NCBI GenBank assembly: GCA_913778085.1 | Contig: CAJYXJ010000014.1 | Span: 62,001 to 126,000 of the forward strand | Reading direction: 5' to 3' | Source of the DNA: an uncultured Chryseobacterium sp. | GTDB lineage: Bacteria; Bacteroidota; Bacteroidia; Flavobacteriales; Weeksellaceae | Length of the DNA: 64,000 nt | In this document: positions 56,575-64,000 of the stretch, piece by piece | Layout of the letters: the number at the start of each line of letters is the position of its first letter | Numbering within the stretch: position 1 is the first letter of the stretch | Translations under genes and position numbers: made by a program | The notes under the pieces: generated by a model | Seen by the model: the letters and a program-made list of their open reading frames with translations, nothing else | Databases searched by the model: none | What the model was told of the DNA's origin: nothing

Positions 56575-56877
56575 GGATTCTGTTTTTTCATGGTTTCCTA
56601 GCTGTAAGGATTTATAGCATTGAAAACATCACTTTCCTAAGTGCCTTTTGGTTTGACAAAAGACGGGTGAAGTTCTATAAGCAGTGACCGCCAGGCACCG
56701 GAAAGCATTTTAATATGATGAATGAAATTATTTTTATCGGTGGCTTAGCCTGCCGAAGTTCCCGTGAAAGCTTTTTAAAGCCGCAATAGGTTGTACCCTC
56801 CTACTGTATCGTACAGTCTGATACTATATCTTAAGGAAGCGGCTTAGAAGTAATTGTAGAGAAAGGCTGACTGCATA
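56575..56877. other. Structured gap before the small RNA
   Basis: Contains an inverted pair AAGCCGC (56778-56784) / GCGGCTT (56839-56845) enclosing the hairpin ACTGTA-TCG-TACAGT (56803-56817). No gene is supported. On the minus strand it lies downstream of the small-RNA terminator, so it would be a separate element. Confidence 0.45.
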
Positions 56878-57049
56878 GGAAATAAAACGGCGTGGAACTC
56901 TACAATATCTTATTCGGGGCACTGGTATACCTGCATACAGATAAGAGAGCCCACGCCTAGGTCGTGAGCTTCACGCTTATCCTCTCGTATGCTAAAATTA
57001 CCAGTTTTCGAATAGAGATTCTAAGCAATAGCTTCTATGATTCGTTGAA
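56878..57049 (-). ncRNA. Candidate small RNA, about 170 nt, minus strand
   Basis: Transcript predicted from a strong promoter (57056-57086) to a terminator whose stem closes with GGCGTGG (56951-56957 on the minus strand) / CCACGCC (56889-56895), then GTTTTATTT. Inside the stem further pairs occur (CTCT/AGAG, and GTAT-GCAGGT-ATAC as the tip loop); a short hairpin CGTGA-GCT-TCACG sits at 56963-56975. No open frame of note. Length and long bulged stem recall 6S-like RNAs of flavobacteria, but the identity is not established. Confidence 0.5.
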
Positions 57050-57055
57050 GTATCG

Positions 57056-57086
57056 CAAAATTACGTTTTCTAACGTAAAGAGCAAA
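57056..57086 (-). promoter_or_regulatory. Bacteroidota promoter of the small RNA with inverted-repeat operator in its spacer
   Basis: On the minus strand, TTTG (57086-57083) at -33, a 19-base spacer, and TAATTTTG (57063-57056) at -7: a full consensus match. The spacer holds the inverted repeat TTACGTT (57061-57067) / AACGTAA (57072-57078), 4 bases apart, overlapping the -7 box, which suits a repressor. The XRE gene starting at 57167 on the other strand is the obvious candidate to bind it. Confidence 0.65.
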
Positions 57087-57166
57087 TATATAAAAAACTC
57101 TCAATATATCCAAATATGGATGTGTATATTAAATGAATATTCTAGTAATTGCTACAAATCTTAAAT

Positions 57167-57601
57167 ATGGAAGAAGGAAGAATTGTAGAAATTACTATCG
57201 CAGAAATAGATTTATTTGTAATTAATAAGATTAGAGAACTTAGAGGAAAGGCGAAACCATATATTTCGCAAGTCGAGCTATCACAGAGGATGGGATTCGC
57301 TGATGGATATGTAGGTAAAGTCGAAAACTTTAATTCAAATTCACGCTATAATATAAGAAAGATTCATCTTGCCGCTAGAGCCTTAAATTTAAAATCTTAT
57401 CAAGAATTGTTACCATATGAGATTTTGGAAAATGATTTACTATATTTAAAAATCCTAGTTAATAGAAAAAGAAATGATACAGTTGACTTTGATAACAATG
57501 GTAATGCTATAAAAAATTATACAATTTTAGAAAAAAGAGTTTTGAGCGAAGACGAAGTGAAATTGTTTATCAACAGAAGAAATTCAAGTAAAAATAAATA
57601 G
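57167..57601 (+). CDS. XRE-like helix-turn-helix regulator
   Basis: 144 residues from the ATG at 57167; an upstream ATG at 57149 would add six residues. The pattern DLFVINKIRELRGKAKPYISQVELSQRMGFADGYVGKVENFNSNSRYNIRKIHLAARALNLKSYQELLP is a lambda-repressor-like HTH (recognition helix near ADGYVGKVE). The remaining part is charged. It lies next to a decayed HTH gene and a restriction-like cluster, as control proteins of such loci often do, and divergent from the small RNA. Confidence 0.8.
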   Translation: MEEGRIVEITIAEIDLFVINKIRELRGKAKPYISQVELSQRMGFADGYVGKVENFNSNSRYNIRKIHLAARALNLKSYQELLPYEILENDLLYLKILVNRKRNDTVDFDNNGNAIKNYTILEKRVLSEDEVKLFINRRNSSKNK

Positions 57602-57740
57602 TTATAAATTAATTATTAATGAAGCTTTTAAAACGATATATGCAGTTTTTTTCTAAAATCTTAAATAAATAAGAAAAATATAAGTCAATGAATGATGTTA
57701 CACAAAATTCTGTTTTGATTTCAGCAATTATAATTAGAAC

Positions 57741-57861
57741 GAAAGTGAAAAGAAAATACTGCGATTAAAACTATTATCAAAATAGCTACAGCTTTAGAAT
57801 ATCTCCTAAAGAAGTGTTTGATTTTGACTTTGATATTGAGAAATATGAAATTGATGAATAA
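57741..57861 (+). pseudogene. Decayed second XRE-type regulator
   Basis: Three reading frames joined by one-base losses give the C-terminal part of an HTH protein: ...ESEK / ENTAIKTIIKIATALE / ISPKEVFDFDFDIEKYEIDE, ending at TAA (57859-57861). The shift after TALE is a lost A in GAAATATC, and another lies in the A-run near 57748. The N-terminal helices are not recognisable upstream. The rest of the 57602-57978 gap is AT-rich with no other feature. Confidence 0.6.
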
Positions 57862-57978
57862 ATCTAAACAAAATTAAAATCTTTATATATGAGATCAAAA
57901 ATTGTTCACAAGTTAGAATTAATATGTAAATAAAAGATGTTAATGTAAATATTTAACTCTAAGACACACTCAAAATAT

Positions 57979-58665
57979 TTATATGTACAACCTTTTTGTC
58001 GATGTTCTTAAATAATCTTTTTTTGAAAAATACAGATCATAAATATCTATCAATTCATATATAAAATTTGATATTTCAGTAAATTTGATTCTTATTACAG
58101 AAGATCTATAGCGGCTTCCAATATCGGCGGCATTTTCTCTACCATGAGCTACTGCATTTCTCTTATCTACAATTTCGTTAATTGTAGCTTTAGTTCGAGG
58201 AGATGTATCTAAATTTTTTACACCAAAACAAAGTGTAACTTCTCTAATGGTTTCAAACCATACATTTTGCAATGTGTTGGCAAAAATTGTTTCATTCATC
58301 GTAATAGATGAAGGATTGGTAGTTTCAACAAACAGATCATAAGCTTTAGTAAAAAAGTTTTTGTAGCTGCTATCTTTGAAAGCTTTTAATTTATCAAATA
58401 AAACTACCGAATTAAAGACATTATTATAATGTTTTATTTTAATTGATTTTGTATTAATTAAAACAATTGTATGTTGTACAAGTTCATTGATACTTTTTTC
58501 TAGAGATGAATACAAATGAACATAAAATAGCCCTTTCATGATATTTACTTCCAGAGGAACGCTATGACGTGGATCTTTAGGCTCGAGAGAGGAAATATAA
58601 TTAAGGAATTGCAAATTCTCATTAAGCATATTCCTTGCATTGTGTCTAATAGATGTAAAACTCAT
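57979..58665 (-). CDS. MAE_28990/MAE_18760-like HEPN protein
   Basis: 228 residues, all-helical. The HEPN ribonuclease-type motif R-x4-H is RNAVAH (R169-H174) in EIVDKRNAVAHGREN, as in MAE_28990/MAE_18760 HEPN proteins. VPLEVNIMKGLFYVHLYSSLEKSINELVQHTI is the first helical pair. Such proteins often sit with DUF262 proteins and are thought to be RNA- or tRNA-cutting effectors in anti-phage defence. It follows the DUF262 gene by six bases. Confidence 0.82.
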   Translation of the reverse strand: MSFTSIRHNARNMLNENLQFLNYISSLEPKDPRHSVPLEVNIMKGLFYVHLYSSLEKSINELVQHTIVLINTKSIKIKHYNNVFNSVVLFDKLKAFKDSSYKNFFTKAYDLFVETTNPSSITMNETIFANTLQNVWFETIREVTLCFGVKNLDTSPRTKATINEIVDKRNAVAHGRENAADIGSRYRSSVIRIKFTEISNFIYELIDIYDLYFSKKDYLRTSTKRLYI

Positions 58666-58671
58666 TGATAT

Positions 58672-59718
58672 TTATTTAATATTTAATTTTACAAAATCTA
58701 TTCTTTGATTTAATTTATGTTTTGAATTTGTAGCACCTGTAGTAAGGTTTTTTAATGTTTCATCATCCAGAACAGTTATTAATTTTCTCTTATTAATATT
58801 AAAATTTTCTTTTAATGCATCTGCTGTACCTACACTTATTGCTTCAAATAAAACTAATGGAGTTATATTTTTACGATTTCCTCTTACAATTCCATTGGGT
58901 AAATATTCATTTAAAACTTTAAAAGTCTTTTCGAATAATTGTTTTAATTCTCTCTTATTTTTAAAAATTTTGGTCTTACTTTCCATATATTCATTTAGAA
59001 ATTCTTTGACTCCATGTACAAAAGAATCTCTATTTTCGAAATATGCAAAAAATTTAAGTACTAATTCTTCTAAATTACCAGTTTTTTCGGCATTCTTAGT
59101 CATTTTAACAACTGACTTAAAGTCTAAATTTGTAGCACATTCTTTTATAAAATCGTTAAATTCCCCAATATAAACACAATTACGAATTTCCTGAGGATGT
59201 AAAGTTACCCCTCCTGTATTTAATCTTTCAAATAAATCATAACGAACATTAAAATCACTTTTATCATTTAAAACAGTAATTCTTATTGGCCTTGTTTGAA
59301 ATGATAATTGAATTGATTTAGGTAGATCCTCAAAATAAAGACTATTAAAGGAATTTAATTTTTCTAAACCTGAAATTCTTAACTTAGAGGTATTATCATT
59401 TATTTTCCGAATAACATTTTCAGAGCCTATAAAATTAACGATAGTTGTTAATCTTTGTAATCCATCTATAACTTCCCATGTAGCATCCTTATTAGTTGCC
59501 ATAAATAAACTCGGAACAGGAATTCCTAAAAAAATTGATTCAATTAATTGAGATTGCCTTTCTTCATCCCATATGAAATGTCTTTGATAATCTGGTGCTA
59601 TATCAATGGTTTCTTCACAAACCATATCATAAAGTTGTCTTACTGTAATGTCATAACTATCAAATGATACAGATCTTCGATTTTTGTCAAGTTGCTCTTG
59701 GATTTTTAATATGTCCAT
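58672..59718 (-). CDS. DUF262 (ParB/GmrSD-like) protein
   Basis: 348 residues. The DUF262 signatures are complete: IAPDYQRHFIWDEERQSQLIESIFLGIPVPSLF (42-72), EVIDGLQRLTTIVNF (DGxQR variant DGLQR at 85-89), and FERLNTGGVTLHPQEIRN. DUF262 has a ParB/Srx-like nuclease or NTP-linked fold and is the effector core of GmrSD-like modification-dependent systems; here the C-terminal DUF1524/HNH domain of those is not present, so the activity is open. Co-transcribed with the HEPN gene. Confidence 0.9.
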   Translation of the reverse strand: MDILKIQEQLDKNRRSVSFDSYDITVRQLYDMVCEETIDIAPDYQRHFIWDEERQSQLIESIFLGIPVPSLFMATNKDATWEVIDGLQRLTTIVNFIGSENVIRKINDNTSKLRISGLEKLNSFNSLYFEDLPKSIQLSFQTRPIRITVLNDKSDFNVRYDLFERLNTGGVTLHPQEIRNCVYIGEFNDFIKECATNLDFKSVVKMTKNAEKTGNLEELVLKFFAYFENRDSFVHGVKEFLNEYMESKTKIFKNKRELKQLFEKTFKVLNEYLPNGIVRGNRKNITPLVLFEAISVGTADALKENFNINKRKLITVLDDETLKNLTTGATNSKHKLNQRIDFVKLNIK

Positions 59719-59831
59719 TAATTTTATTTAAGTTTTAGGATTAGTTTGTAAATGAAAATATTTCTTTATAATAAAAATATCTAATTAAGATATTTCAAAA
59801 TTTTAATATCACCACAATTTAAGATAATATT

Positions 59832-61736
59832 TTAATAATCAATATCTGTTATATTATACTTTTTTAATAAAAACTTATTAATTGCAGATTTATTTCTCAA
59901 TCTCATAAAATTAGCTTTTTCACTATCGGAAAATTTGGGAATACTAAAATTCTTAATATAATTCTTTGCTAATGCAAAATAATTATTTGCATATGGCTTA
60001 CTTGTCCGCGTTATATAATACCAAAAAATATCTGTTTTTAAGATCTTTTGAACAAACATCAGATCTTCTTCTGAATCTGAAACTAATGCATATCCATTAT
60101 AAAATAATAGTTCTCTGTCATTTGTGAAAACAAAGTATGGTTTATCAGAAATATATGGAAATAAAATCTTTAAGCCTAAAATATTTAGAGCCTGATTCCT
60201 TCCGTACGCATACCAAGTATCATACTCTCTCTCGCCTTTATCTCTTTTTGACAATTCTGCCTTTTCCGAATGAAGATAATGATAAGCATTTGGAAAATTG
60301 CTATGAAATATTTCTTCTGGAATAATCTTTACAATACGTGTAGTTTGCCCCTCAAATAAATTATCATTTATTTGCTCAATAATATGATATGGAAATATAA
60401 TCTTTTCCATTAATCGATTAAGATCAGCTTCATTTTTTAAGATGTTAGGCTTTATTGCATCTCTACAAATCCCTCTCTCAATTTGAAATCGTTCTTTATT
60501 CTTTTCGAAATAATAAAATTCGTCATCTTCTTCTATAGGTGTAAATAAATAGATATTGTTACGCAATGTTGCAAAACCATTCCTAATGTTGAATAAATCA
60601 CCTAACTTAAAACCTGCAGTTTCCAGTTTATTCAAATTCAATTTGGTTTTAGCATCTTCCAATTGCCACCCATCAATATTATTTAATTGAGTATAATCAA
60701 AGACGATAAAATCAGCGTTTTCTAATGAATTAATATTTTGAGGAGTTGTATTTGTATAAGTTAATTTTCCACGATCTTTTCTAATTTGACATATACAAGT
60801 ATATGTTAATCTTGATTTAAATACTTGCTCACTTCCAAAATCAATTAGTTTAAATTCATAACTATTTTCAGAGAAAAAATTTCTTAGAGCTCGCCCATTT
60901 AGACTTCGATAAAAATTATTAACAGTTATAAAACTTAAAATTCCACTATTGTTTAACCAAGTCAATCCTATTTGAAAAAAAGGAATATACAAGTCAAGCT
61001 TACCTGTTGAAGAAACTGACCAATTCTTCATTAGGTTTTTAGTATGATTATCCAAATTCGATGATCCAACGTAAGGAGGATTACCCACAATTGCGTCAAA
61101 TCCATTATTAATTCTTAATACATCAATTTGATTCCAATCGAAATTCAATGCATCACCATTATGTAAATTAAAATAAAATTCATTCCTGTCTTCACCATTA
61201 ATTATTGCATGTAAACAAAGTAATATTTGTGTTCTAGTAATACTATAATTTTGGATATCAAGACCAAAAATATTTTCATTATAGATATCAAAATAACTCT
61301 TATTTAACTTCACTCTATATTCTTCTGCAATAGTTTTAAAAAAACCGCCACATCCACAAGCAATATCACCAAATCTCAATTCATTAAGATCTCTTCCTTG
61401 ACTAATAAAATCATTAAACACATTACTTACAATGTACTCTCTTATATAATTAGGTGTAAATACTGCACCATTGACTTCCTTATCTTCTGGAGAAATAACA
61501 AATTCAAAAAGCTCAAGTAAAAGTTCTATATCAAAGTCTATATCAAAAAATGTTATAAATTGTTGTAATTGTTCATATTCTTTTACATTTTCATTGTTAA
61601 TAAGAAAAGTTCTAATAAATCTATTATTTACTTCTCCAATACCATTAATACGTATGAATGAAGAAACTAATAATCTATTTATATCTTGTTCCTTATAGGA
61701 GTATTCTCTGAGATATTTTAAGATATTTTGATTCAT
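59832..61736 (-). CDS. Eco57I-family DNA adenine methyltransferase
   Basis: 634 residues, class I SAM-dependent. Motif I DIACGCGGFFKTIAEEY (about 125-140) binds SAM and motif IV VGNPPYVGSS (NPPY at 219-222) is the N6-adenine catalytic loop; SPEDKEVNGAVFTPNYIREYIV upstream is the usual N-terminal MTase opening. The C-terminal part (NIRNGFATLRNNIYLFTP, GRNQALNILGLKILFPYISDKPYFVF) resembles a TaqI-like target-recognition domain. No endonuclease domain is visible in the chain, so it is methylase-only unless a partner cuts. 113 bases separate it from the DUF262 gene. Confidence 0.88.
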   Translation of the reverse strand: MNQNILKYLREYSYKEQDINRLLVSSFIRINGIGEVNNRFIRTFLINNENVKEYEQLQQFITFFDIDFDIELLLELFEFVISPEDKEVNGAVFTPNYIREYIVSNVFNDFISQGRDLNELRFGDIACGCGGFFKTIAEEYRVKLNKSYFDIYNENIFGLDIQNYSITRTQILLCLHAIINGEDRNEFYFNLHNGDALNFDWNQIDVLRINNGFDAIVGNPPYVGSSNLDNHTKNLMKNWSVSSTGKLDLYIPFFQIGLTWLNNSGILSFITVNNFYRSLNGRALRNFFSENSYEFKLIDFGSEQVFKSRLTYTCICQIRKDRGKLTYTNTTPQNINSLENADFIVFDYTQLNNIDGWQLEDAKTKLNLNKLETAGFKLGDLFNIRNGFATLRNNIYLFTPIEEDDEFYYFEKNKERFQIERGICRDAIKPNILKNEADLNRLMEKIIFPYHIIEQINDNLFEGQTTRIVKIIPEEIFHSNFPNAYHYLHSEKAELSKRDKGEREYDTWYAYGRNQALNILGLKILFPYISDKPYFVFTNDRELLFYNGYALVSDSEEDLMFVQKILKTDIFWYYITRTSKPYANNYFALAKNYIKNFSIPKFSDSEKANFMRLRNKSAINKFLLKKYNITDIDY

Positions 61737-61738
61737 TA

Positions 61739-62449
61739 TTAAGTGTAAAGAGGGAATAGTTTGTTAATTTTATAATCATTATGATTATAATCTATAGCAA
61801 AACCATTAAAATAAGATTCCCATAATCTCTTTTTCGAGTTATTTAGTATTCTTAAATATCTATGATCTATTAAAATGTTATCAACATAATTAAATCTTTT
61901 TCGATCAACGAAATTATTAATAATAAAATGAAATGCTAATATTATATCCATGGGAGGATGCGGAATTCTTGGACTACTCAAGATAGCCATATCTGGATCT
62001 AAATACTCGTGCTTTTTACCTCCAAACTGAATATGATAATATGGATGAATGTAAGAGAAGGCTAGCTCTCTCTCTTCTTTATCAAGGTGCCAAGTGCAAC
62101 AATATTCTTTTTTTTGATTTTGTTCCGATTTAAAAAGGCTCACTTTCAAATCTAATGTATATTTAAAAAGTGGGTCTATTTTATCACTTAAAGTGTCCTT
62201 TAACGCAAGTCTATTTTCCAAATCAATTTTACAAAAATGCATTTCATCTGGTTTTGCACCCGCAATTGCGCCTTTTAAATAAATACTAAAATTCTCTAAC
62301 CGGTAATCAACCAAGTCTTTTGGGCTATTTTCTACTGTTTCAATTAAATTATTCAAACCAGTGAAATCACCATGGATATCATTTTCTGATATTATCTCTA
62401 AAAGAAATTTCACGTCTTTCACATAATTTCTACGGCTCCATATTTCCAT
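61739..62449 (-). CDS. Uncharacterised protein, 236 aa, between receiver and methyltransferase genes
   Basis: No family assigned. Charged helical N-terminus (WSRRNYVKDVKFLLEIISENDIHGDF), a mixed middle with YCCTWHLDKEERELAFSYIHPYYHIQFGGKKHEYLDPDMAILSSPRIPHPPMDIILAFHFIINNF, where the histidines (YIHPYYHIQFGGK, PHPPMD) could be a metal or catalytic site. Starts 3 bases after the receiver stop and ends 2 bases before the methyltransferase start, so it is a fixed part of the operon. Confidence 0.6.
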   Translation of the reverse strand: MEIWSRRNYVKDVKFLLEIISENDIHGDFTGLNNLIETVENSPKDLVDYRLENFSIYLKGAIAGAKPDEMHFCKIDLENRLALKDTLSDKIDPLFKYTLDLKVSLFKSEQNQKKEYCCTWHLDKEERELAFSYIHPYYHIQFGGKKHEYLDPDMAILSSPRIPHPPMDIILAFHFIINNFVDRKRFNYVDNILIDHRYLRILNNSKKRLWESYFNGFAIDYNHNDYKINKLFPLYT

Positions 62450-62452
62450 ATA

Positions 62453-63505
62453 TTATAAATATTTGCGCATTTCTTTTCTATCTAAATCACTTATAATTTT
62501 ACTATATATATCAATATCGTCTAAGTAACCATCTATGGAAATGTAGTCTTTATCCTGCCAAGGTTTAAAATCTTCTTCTAATAATTCTATTCCATCAAAA
62601 GGATCTAATGGAAGTTTTGTGTGTTTACAAATAGTCCAATAATTACTACTCAAGTTCTTATCGCTAGAAGTTACAACATTCAAATCTAAACCTGTTTTTT
62701 CATTTATTTTTTTTACTCGTTCTTCAGCATTAAAATGTCTTAGTGAATATTTTTCATCAATTTTTAACATCCACCAATTATCAATTTTTGACATCCACCA
62801 TCGGTTATATACTTCTGAAAATACACCTTTATACTTACAATCAGATATTTCCTCTATCAGTTTTACCCAGTTATTTGATTCTTTACTAACTCCAAGTCTG
62901 GCAGATAAAATATCTTCTCCGATTAGTAAACCTGAACATCGGATTACATGCTCAAAGATAAACCTACTATATTCATAAACTGATTGATTACTATCATTTA
63001 AATAAATAAATAGTTTTGAATGAATTAAATTTTCTTCTATTTCTAATATTTTCGGTAAATCAAATTTTACTTCTAATATCTTTCTATAAGCTTTTACAAA
63101 TGCAATACATTTATTAATAAATTTCTGTGTATATTTTTTTGTTGCATTATCTTTCGTGATAGCATAATCAAAAAGGTCATGGCTTGTATAGTCTTTTCTA
63201 TAAGAATTAACAATGTTATCCTTATTAGACATTAATACAATAGGTCTTTCTTTGAGACCTTCAACAGCGGTCAATGATCTTAAAGTAGAGGCTATCGACG
63301 GAGCATTGCAATATTTTAGATTAGATCCTTCTGTTAAAATATAGTCTAGTAATACTAAATCTGGATTTACTGTTTTTATATCATTTATAATCAAATCAAT
63401 GTTATCAGAAGGAGGAAGAGACGTTATATTAAAATTTTCTCTTTCAAAAGTGAGATTTCTAGTTTCTGCTTCTAAATCTTCTATATATAATATTTTATAA
63501 GCCAT
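62453..63505 (-). CDS. Response-regulator receiver protein with unusual C-terminal part
   Basis: 350 residues. An N-terminal receiver domain: acidic pocket ED at 9-10, phospho-acceptor D54 in LVLLDYIL, switch Ser S93 in LMSNK and Lys K119 in AITKD. No DNA-binding output domain follows; instead 230 residues of helical sequence with no family known to me, containing an 8-residue tandem duplication (WWMSKIDN / WWMLKIDE). Overlaps the histidine kinase gene by 11 bases. Confidence 0.8.
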   Translation of the reverse strand: MAYKILYIEDLEAETRNLTFERENFNITSLPPSDNIDLIINDIKTVNPDLVLLDYILTEGSNLKYCNAPSIASTLRSLTAVEGLKERPIVLMSNKDNIVNSYRKDYTSHDLFDYAITKDNATKKYTQKFINKCIAFVKAYRKILEVKFDLPKILEIEENLIHSKLFIYLNDSNQSVYEYSRFIFEHVIRCSGLLIGEDILSARLGVSKESNNWVKLIEEISDCKYKGVFSEVYNRWWMSKIDNWWMLKIDEKYSLRHFNAEERVKKINEKTGLDLNVVTSSDKNLSSNYWTICKHTKLPLDPFDGIELLEEDFKPWQDKDYISIDGYLDDIDIYSKIISDLDRKEMRKYL

Positions 63506-64000
63506 ATTTATCTAAATCTTTATCTGTAGCTGCGGGTACTTCGATACATATTGTAGTTGAATACCCATATTTTGGGTTATCTACAAATATTTTACCTCGA
63601 TAACTACTTAATATATCTTTTACTATTTTTAATCCTAGTCCTGTTCCAGTTATCTCATTTTTTGAATCTAAATCATCTAAAGTATTTGGGGACGATGTTG
63701 TGAAAAATTCTTCAAAGATACGATCTTTAATTTCTTCACTAATACCATCACCTGTATCAGAAAATCTAACAATTAGTTTATTTTCATTTTTACCACATTC
63801 AATATTGATTACTCCAATATTATTACTCCTTTTTATTGCCTTTTTTGAATTTGTAAATAAATTAAATAATATACTAGACCATTCCGATGGATGCATAGGG
63901 CAAGAGAATAAATAGTTCCCTACAATTTCCGGTTCTTCTAGTTTTATATCATTTTTAATTAAATCATTTTCAATTGTTTTCCAAAAAGTATTTATAGCTT
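63495..64000 (-). CDS. Histidine kinase, C-terminal part only (window edge)
   Basis: The frame stays open to the window end, giving 168 residues; the ATG at 63896 is internal. The GHKL ATPase core is clear: N-box NLFTNSKKAIKR, G1 box DTGDGI, F box EEFFTTSS and G2 box GTGLGLKIV. The sensor and dimerisation parts lie outside the window. Paired with the downstream receiver gene (11-base overlap). A non-kinase GHKL ATPase is the alternative until the rest is seen. Confidence 0.85.
   Translation of the reverse strand, partial: AINTFWKTIENDLIKNDIKLEEPEIVGNYLFSCPMHPSEWSSILFNLFTNSKKAIKRSNNIGVINIECGKNENKLIVRFSDTGDGISEEIKDRIFEEFFTTSSPNTLDDLDSKNEITGTGLGLKIVKDILSSYRGKIFVDNPKYGYSTTICIEVPAATDKDLDKYGL

Follow-up and report, generated by a model that had tools for sequence, protein, structure and literature searches.

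Do the six defence-like genes at the end of a 64,000-nucleotide stretch of an uncultured Chryseobacterium contig (G000:C14:62001-126000, hereafter the window) form one system, or do two systems lie side by side? A preliminary description of the window had proposed a single module, in which a kinase and a receiver license or block the toxicity of a DUF262 and a HEPN protein. We find that the kinase, the receiver, a protein that we call THIRD and an Eco57I-type DNA methyltransferase (methylase) almost certainly constitute a four-gene unit that is separate from the DUF262-HEPN pair (Table 1). A role of this unit in defence or restriction is likely. More tentatively, we suggest that a His-Asp phosphorelay switches a restriction machine: the kinase would report an absent self mark via the receiver to a new nuclease, and signal, mark and effector would be exchangeable modules, with adenine methylation and phosphorothioation alike serving as the mark.

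The observations from which the preliminary description started are accurate. Six minus-strand open reading frames (ORFs) are present at 57979-64000, a region with 26.8% GC compared to a mean of 40% in the whole window and of 41% in 6-kb windows of its remainder (standard deviation 3%, minimum 34%); recounting gave 12 and 35 G+C in the 60-base lines at 61501 and 53401. The tight spacing was measured as an 11-base overlap between kinase and receiver, 3 bases between receiver and THIRD, 2 bases between THIRD and methylase and 6 bases between DUF262 and HEPN. The methylase and DUF262 genes are 113 bases apart. The residues that had been named were all found (NPPY at 219 of the methylase, DGLQR at 85 of DUF262, R169 and H174 of HEPN, D54 of the receiver).

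Table 1. Coordinates of the features discussed. L002 is the same contig prolonged (L002 position = window position minus 55000); the window truncates the kinase gene, and the full-length kinase was read from L002.
Feature	Position	Strand	Basis
Kinase, C-terminal 167 aa of 767	63495..64000; whole gene G000:C14:125495-127798 (L002:8495-10798)	-	ORF, Pfam
Receiver, 350 aa: REC ~1-141 plus ~200-aa C-terminal region	62453..63505	-	D10, D54, S93, K118
THIRD, 236 aa; motifs WHLDK, HPxYHxxFGG, PRxxHPPMD; candidate effector	61739..62449	-	35-sequence alignment
Eco57I-type DNA methyltransferase, 634 aa, N6-adenine by family	59832..61736	-	Pfam Eco57I 1.8e-30
DUF262/GmrSD_N protein, 348 aa	58672..59718	-	Pfam GmrSD_N 1.2e-33
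RiboL-PSP-type HEPN protein, 228 aa, RNAVAH, DUF262 partner	57979..58665	-	Pfam PF18735 1.8e-18
Small protein, 150 aa, island edge, restriction-modification control-protein-like	57149..57601	+	PADLOC Control_protein 2.4e-4
AT-rich variable island	56588..64000 (L002:1588-11263), on to about G000:C14:128263	.	Flank comparison, GC tables

Conservation of the four-gene unit

We compared 43 loci that encode THIRD: the window, L008, 29 loci from one search, the plasmid L039, L151-L155 and six viral contigs. L007 and L014 are one place, as are L009 and L034, and each place was counted once. The order kinase-receiver-THIRD-methylase on a single strand was found in 28 of the 43 loci (L039, L152, L154 and L155 among them). 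This count takes in L016, which has a broken kinase and a short methylase frame, and L032, where THIRD is split in two frames. The joining of the kinase pair to a methylase without a recognised nuclease, as first described in the window, is thus a recurrent arrangement. The 11-base overlap of the kinase and receiver genes is seen in 20 of the 26 loci listed.

Eight loci have the order methylase-kinase-receiver-THIRD (L035, L037, L038, L124, L125, L126, L128, L129), and the last five of these are on IMG/VR viral contigs. The methylase of L019 adjoins but is reversed, and the kinase and THIRD frames there are broken. In L036, the receiver and THIRD are present and no kinase or mark gene was recognised; L127 begins inside THIRD and is not assessable. 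Altogether, a DNA-marking gene is at hand in 41 of the 42 assessable loci; Bacteroidota, Pseudomonadota and a planctomycete metagenome-assembled genome (MAG) are among the hosts.

A gene scan of four of the six viral contigs (L124, L125, L126 and L128) detected a phage replication protein (phrog_91) in L125 and L128, a portal protein in L126 and a transposase in L124; the phage genes of L125, L128 and L126 we take to be P2-like prophages. On the Hymenobacter plasmid L039, the trio-methylase operon has a gene with a Piwi domain and one for a large DNA methyltransferase as neighbours (L039:1324-6961).

Two kinds of mark beside the same trio

The window methylase is predicted to be a DNA methyltransferase from its family match. 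It matches PADLOC MTase_II (PDLC03335, 9e-108, residues 25-632; defence-model matches are from PADLOC-DB 2.0.0), aligns to type IIG restriction-modification (R-M) proteins (PADLOC 1.5e-62) and contains Pfam domains of methylase kinds only. In four loci (L033, L034, L151, L153), the kinase-receiver-THIRD trio stands beside SspABCD genes. The trio is co-directional with SspC and SspD in L034, L151 and L153, and SspBCD are divergent in L033; no SspB was recognised in L034, which reaches the contig end. The kinases of these four loci group together (SH-aLRT 99) within the methylase-linked kinases. Most simply, therefore, the mark changed once from methylation to phosphorothioation. PbeA and PbeC-like genes are found near the trio in L151 and L153, so that restriction partners besides the trio may be at work there. 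In their place, L033 and L034 encode a protein of 795-810 aa, which has weak HATPase_c_3 similarity in L009 (the same place as L034).

Kinase and receiver

A sensor histidine kinase had been described at the window's end. A kinase is indeed present, cut by the window; however, its two GHKL ATPase domains set it apart from ordinary histidine kinases. The 767-aa protein consists of an N-terminal paraMORC/MutL-like GHKL ATPase (HATPase_c_3 at 60-187, Pfam 1.7e-24), an H-box with H534 and a C-terminal HATPase_c (642-756, 8e-25). Its N-terminal half resembles BbrUII/HgiDII (NCBIfam, 1.5e-22, under the model's cut-off) and REase_II (PADLOC, 1e-12). H534 is found in 54 of 54 aligned kinases, where the alignment is unsure for five divergent C5-linked kinases, and histidine followed by an acidic residue (H534-E535) in every THIRD-linked kinase aligned. 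The Pfam family HEF_HK (PF19191) has no match at E<=0.1 in the window kinase; among the kinases of 10 relatives scanned, L043 alone scores (0.0079, under the cut-off).

The window receiver has a predicted (beta-alpha)5 fold with a phospho-acceptor Asp, and D10, D54 and K118 are kept in 29 receivers. Response_reg_2 (PF19192) matches neither the window receiver nor, at E<=0.1, any of the 29. A phosphorelay between kinase and receiver is somewhat more likely than not.

THIRD and its counterparts in sister loci

The slot after the receiver is filled differently in sister loci, that is, in kinase relatives on plasmids and in 27 of 296 genomes of the phylum, the one of the window among them. Among the selected slot proteins that we inspected, six are HNH proteins (L040, L041, L077, L079, L084, L093; the score of L079 is just under the Pfam cut-off). 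The order is methylase-kinase-receiver-HNH in L041 and kinase-receiver-HNH-methylase in the other five, where HNH sits in the exact position of THIRD. Further slot proteins have a metallo-beta-lactamase (MBL) fold (L044, L076) or are Vsr (L089), HNH_2 (L094) or unassigned proteins.

A tree of 54 kinases keeps apart those linked to HNH (96), to MBL (100) and to THIRD together with THIRD-like proteins (95), and the C5-linked kinases fall into two groups. Neighbour type changes five times on this tree (minimum possible four), and none of 200 shuffles was as low. The methylase tree does not follow the kinase tree: the methylase of the HNH locus L093 nests among the THIRD-linked methylases (51% identical to that of L008, SH-aLRT 98), whereas its kinase belongs to the HNH clade. 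Mark enzymes can thus pass from one type to another, with the kinase and its slot protein remaining associated.

THIRD itself has no significant match by Pfam, PDB-sequence or fold search. Twelve positions are invariant in 35 sequences (D123, P136, Y138, H139, G143, P160, R161, P166, D168, L171, N179, Y213). No cognate endonuclease was recognised in the four-gene unit, and THIRD is the candidate by position. On balance we expect THIRD to act as the effector; that it is a nuclease has a little less than an even chance.

Some additional observations concern the sister loci and kinases. The MBL-fold proteins (L044:9728-10765, L076:4573-5628) follow the receiver in methylase-kinase-receiver loci, one of them on a Hymenobacter plasmid. 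In two C5-methylase loci, the protein after the receiver (L095:8689-9354, L096:8827-9549) has no PADLOC match; that of L095 has no strong Pfam match and contains HGSSSG and SCKS stretches, which presumably recall caspase/CHAT-type proteases. The kinases of L030, an Algoriphagus MAG, and L152, a genome of the window's order, are almost identical (branches 0.024 and 0.028), which looks like a recent transfer.

The DUF262-HEPN pair

Profiles of the window DUF262 and HEPN proteins gave no match at E<1e-3 in the 42 other THIRD loci (L008, L010-L039, L124-L129, L151-L155), which were scanned with flanks of at most 10 kb, often shorter. A single HEPN score of 0.003 lands on a receiver. Of the six-gene order, kinase-receiver-THIRD-methylase recurs in other genomes, whereas DUF262-HEPN did not accompany it in the loci scanned. 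As grounds for rejecting its model, the preliminary description had named a split in which methylase, DUF262 and HEPN stay together without the kinase pair; we observed the reverse, the kinase pair with the methylase and without DUF262-HEPN.

DUF262 was detected at E<=1e-25 in 11 of 148 relatives (own included), and we looked at the surroundings in six of the other ten (L118-L123). None of the six contains the trio. In L118, a DUF262 protein 71% identical to that of the window is clearly adjoined by HEPN (2e-34). A weak HEPN match adjoins DUF262 in L119 (4e-5) and L121 (1e-2); the neighbour is an unassigned protein of 269 aa in L120 and of 224 aa in L123, and a different gene in L122. Stray kinase (4e-3, L118) and receiver (3e-3, L119) scores fall on unrelated-looking ORFs. 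Directly before DUF262 and the weak HEPN match of L119 lies an ORF (L119:6379-9099) whose start, as we read it, presumably represents a C5 methylase. DUF262-HEPN may have separate methylases as partners.

Comparison with the PADLOC catalogue, which had been suggested, matched DUF262 to NsnA (2.5e-71), which outscores PD-T4-2_A (9e-55), in addition to the methylase match given above. DUF262 and PF18735 HEPN are both given for PD-T4-2 (PMC10952713), a validated defence system. Deleting PD-T4-2 from its native strain increases the plaquing of T4 (PMC9519451; here and below, statements on published systems refer to the accessible text of the sources). Like PD-T4-2, the window has a DUF262 gene and a PF18735 HEPN gene (57979-59718); unlike it, the HEPN has no PADLOC PD-T4-2 match at E<=0.1, where PADLOC was not checked for a model of the second component. 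RiboL-PSP-HEPN has also been described in operons with ParB (Anantharaman et al., PMC3710099). We conclude that DUF262 and HEPN probably form a PD-T4-2-like system of their own beside the four-gene unit.

Possible mechanism and alternatives

In the chain that we propose, the methylase would mark host DNA and the kinase would inspect DNA, with unmarked DNA leading to autophosphorylation at H534. From there the phosphate would go to the receiver (D54), and the additional C-terminal region of the receiver would turn on THIRD. THIRD would be the effector of restriction and would most likely represent a new nuclease family. This complete chain, in which THIRD is the effector, comes close to an even prospect without reaching it. 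Receivers are 316-382 aa long in the 31 THIRD loci listed compared to 209-227 aa in eight HNH/MBL loci, whose short receivers do not have the ~200-aa C-terminal region of the window receiver. Such a difference would agree with a receiver region dedicated to THIRD. It weighs against this that C5-linked receivers are mostly 307-450 aa long too.

Two-component pairs mostly regulate transcription. From this usual role, the pair might be expected to tune the expression or activity of the methylase, as epigenetic control or R-M timing, with THIRD as an accessory and no restriction; signalling that controls R-M systems has been proposed by Bellieny-Rabelo et al. (PMC8011034). However, no Pfam DNA-binding domain was found in the 29 receivers save one weak match in one member (HTH_NWD1, 0.01), the trio also occurs with SspABCD, and the slot after the receiver is taken by HNH, MBL-fold or Vsr proteins in sister loci, which renders such tuning unlikely. 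Alternatively, the GHKL ATPase could drive restriction as a paraMORC-like DNA-looping or clamp engine, with kinase and receiver acting by protein contact and no phosphotransfer. The likeness of the N-terminal half to the GHKL restriction enzymes named above, BbrUII/HgiDII (below cut-off) and REase_II, would agree with this, as would the DNA looping that Iyer et al. suggest for paraMORCs (PMC2292703). Yet the retention of H534 in 54 aligned kinases and of D10/D54/K118 in 29 receivers argues against a lost phosphotransfer, since drift would otherwise be expected, and we give this explanation a rather low probability.

THIRD might also be a specificity or adaptor subunit, the methylase itself cutting or blocking DNA upon a phosphorylated receiver in a type IIG- or BREX-like exclusion. 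This would be consistent with the alignment of the methylase to type IIG proteins and with a THIRD that carries no recognised nuclease signature, but SspABCD replaces the methylase beside the same trio and Pfam sees methylase domains only in the methylase; we thus consider it improbable. As for a single six-gene system in which the pair controls DUF262/HEPN toxicity, the shared strand and AT-rich island are compatible with it. It is nevertheless highly implausible given the missing DUF262/HEPN matches (E<1e-3) in the 42 other THIRD loci, the L118 pair without a trio, the 113-bp gap after the methylase and the resemblance to PD-T4-2.

Comparison to known systems

The preliminary description knew of no named system in which a two-component pair is wired to such defence genes; Detocs (PMC11249213) does link two-component signalling to defence, and pairs adjacent to R-M genes have been published (PMC8011034). 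The nearest published match to our unit are the HEF_HK/Response_reg_2 pairs, found beside R-M genes, with C5 methylases, Vsr and HNH, in a sequence analysis of 2021 (PMC8011034). They share with it a kinase of HATPase_c_3, H-box and HATPase_c, a neighbouring receiver, the linkage to methylase and nuclease (Vsr, HNH), the conserved histidine followed by an acidic residue, and the receiver Asp and Lys. In contrast to them, the window unit is without PF19191 and PF19192, has an Eco57I-type instead of the usual C5 methylase and includes the conserved THIRD gene, and its trio is also found beside SspABCD. New here are the third gene, the two kinds of mark and a pair outside PF19191/PF19192. The trio is not described in the accessible text of PMC12839542, and a kinase/receiver partner of Ssp is not reported in the mostly open-access literature searched. 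The four Ssp-linked loci share SspABCD genes with phosphorothioation systems that have restriction partners, whereas the window has a methylase.

Detocs, a three-gene family of defensive two-component systems in which the effector described best is a PNP domain that cleaves ATP (PMC11249213), likewise uses two-component signalling in a small defence operon. The six window proteins have no Pfam PNP domain, however, and the accessible text on Detocs mentions no methylase, which the window unit has. A GHKL ATPase tied to restriction, often near methylases, is shared with paraMORC/GHKL restriction proteins and with VcSduA, a GHKL-ATPase/nuclease protein for which phage defence was shown by experiment (PMC2292703, PMC12137116). 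Unlike these, the window protein combines its GHKL ATPase with a second ATPase, of kinase type and with an H-box, and is accompanied by a receiver; in VcSduA, the GHKL domain is fused to the nuclease.

Genomic setting

The island is bordered by a 201-aa gene on one side and an SF1 helicase gene (L002:11312) on the other. G014 and G033 have the left flank at 82-83% and the right flank at 91-92% DNA identity with different cargo between, G035 also holds different cargo at this site, and in SN22 (L009) the Ssp-trio cluster adjoins the same left-flank gene. Shared flanks that enclose different cargo point to a chromosomal hot spot. The adjoining SF1 helicase (L002:11312-13894) has a DUF2726 C-terminus, matches PADLOC MkoA (1.2e-48) and occurs in 20 of the 119 genomes of the genus, counting that of the window. 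The 150-aa edge protein has no Pfam match at E<=0.1.

Implications

A natural test set is provided by the trio, which occurs with two marks of different chemistry, and by one methylase lineage that occurs with two slot proteins; THIRD is offered as a new protein family and effector candidate. Restriction systems are usually regarded as enzymes that read and cut DNA directly. If a phosphorelay does switch restriction as we suggest, an output would be found for the kinase/receiver pairs that were reported near R-M genes in 2021, and with such a relay standing between the reading and the cutting of DNA, restriction would become open to amplification, delay and reversal.

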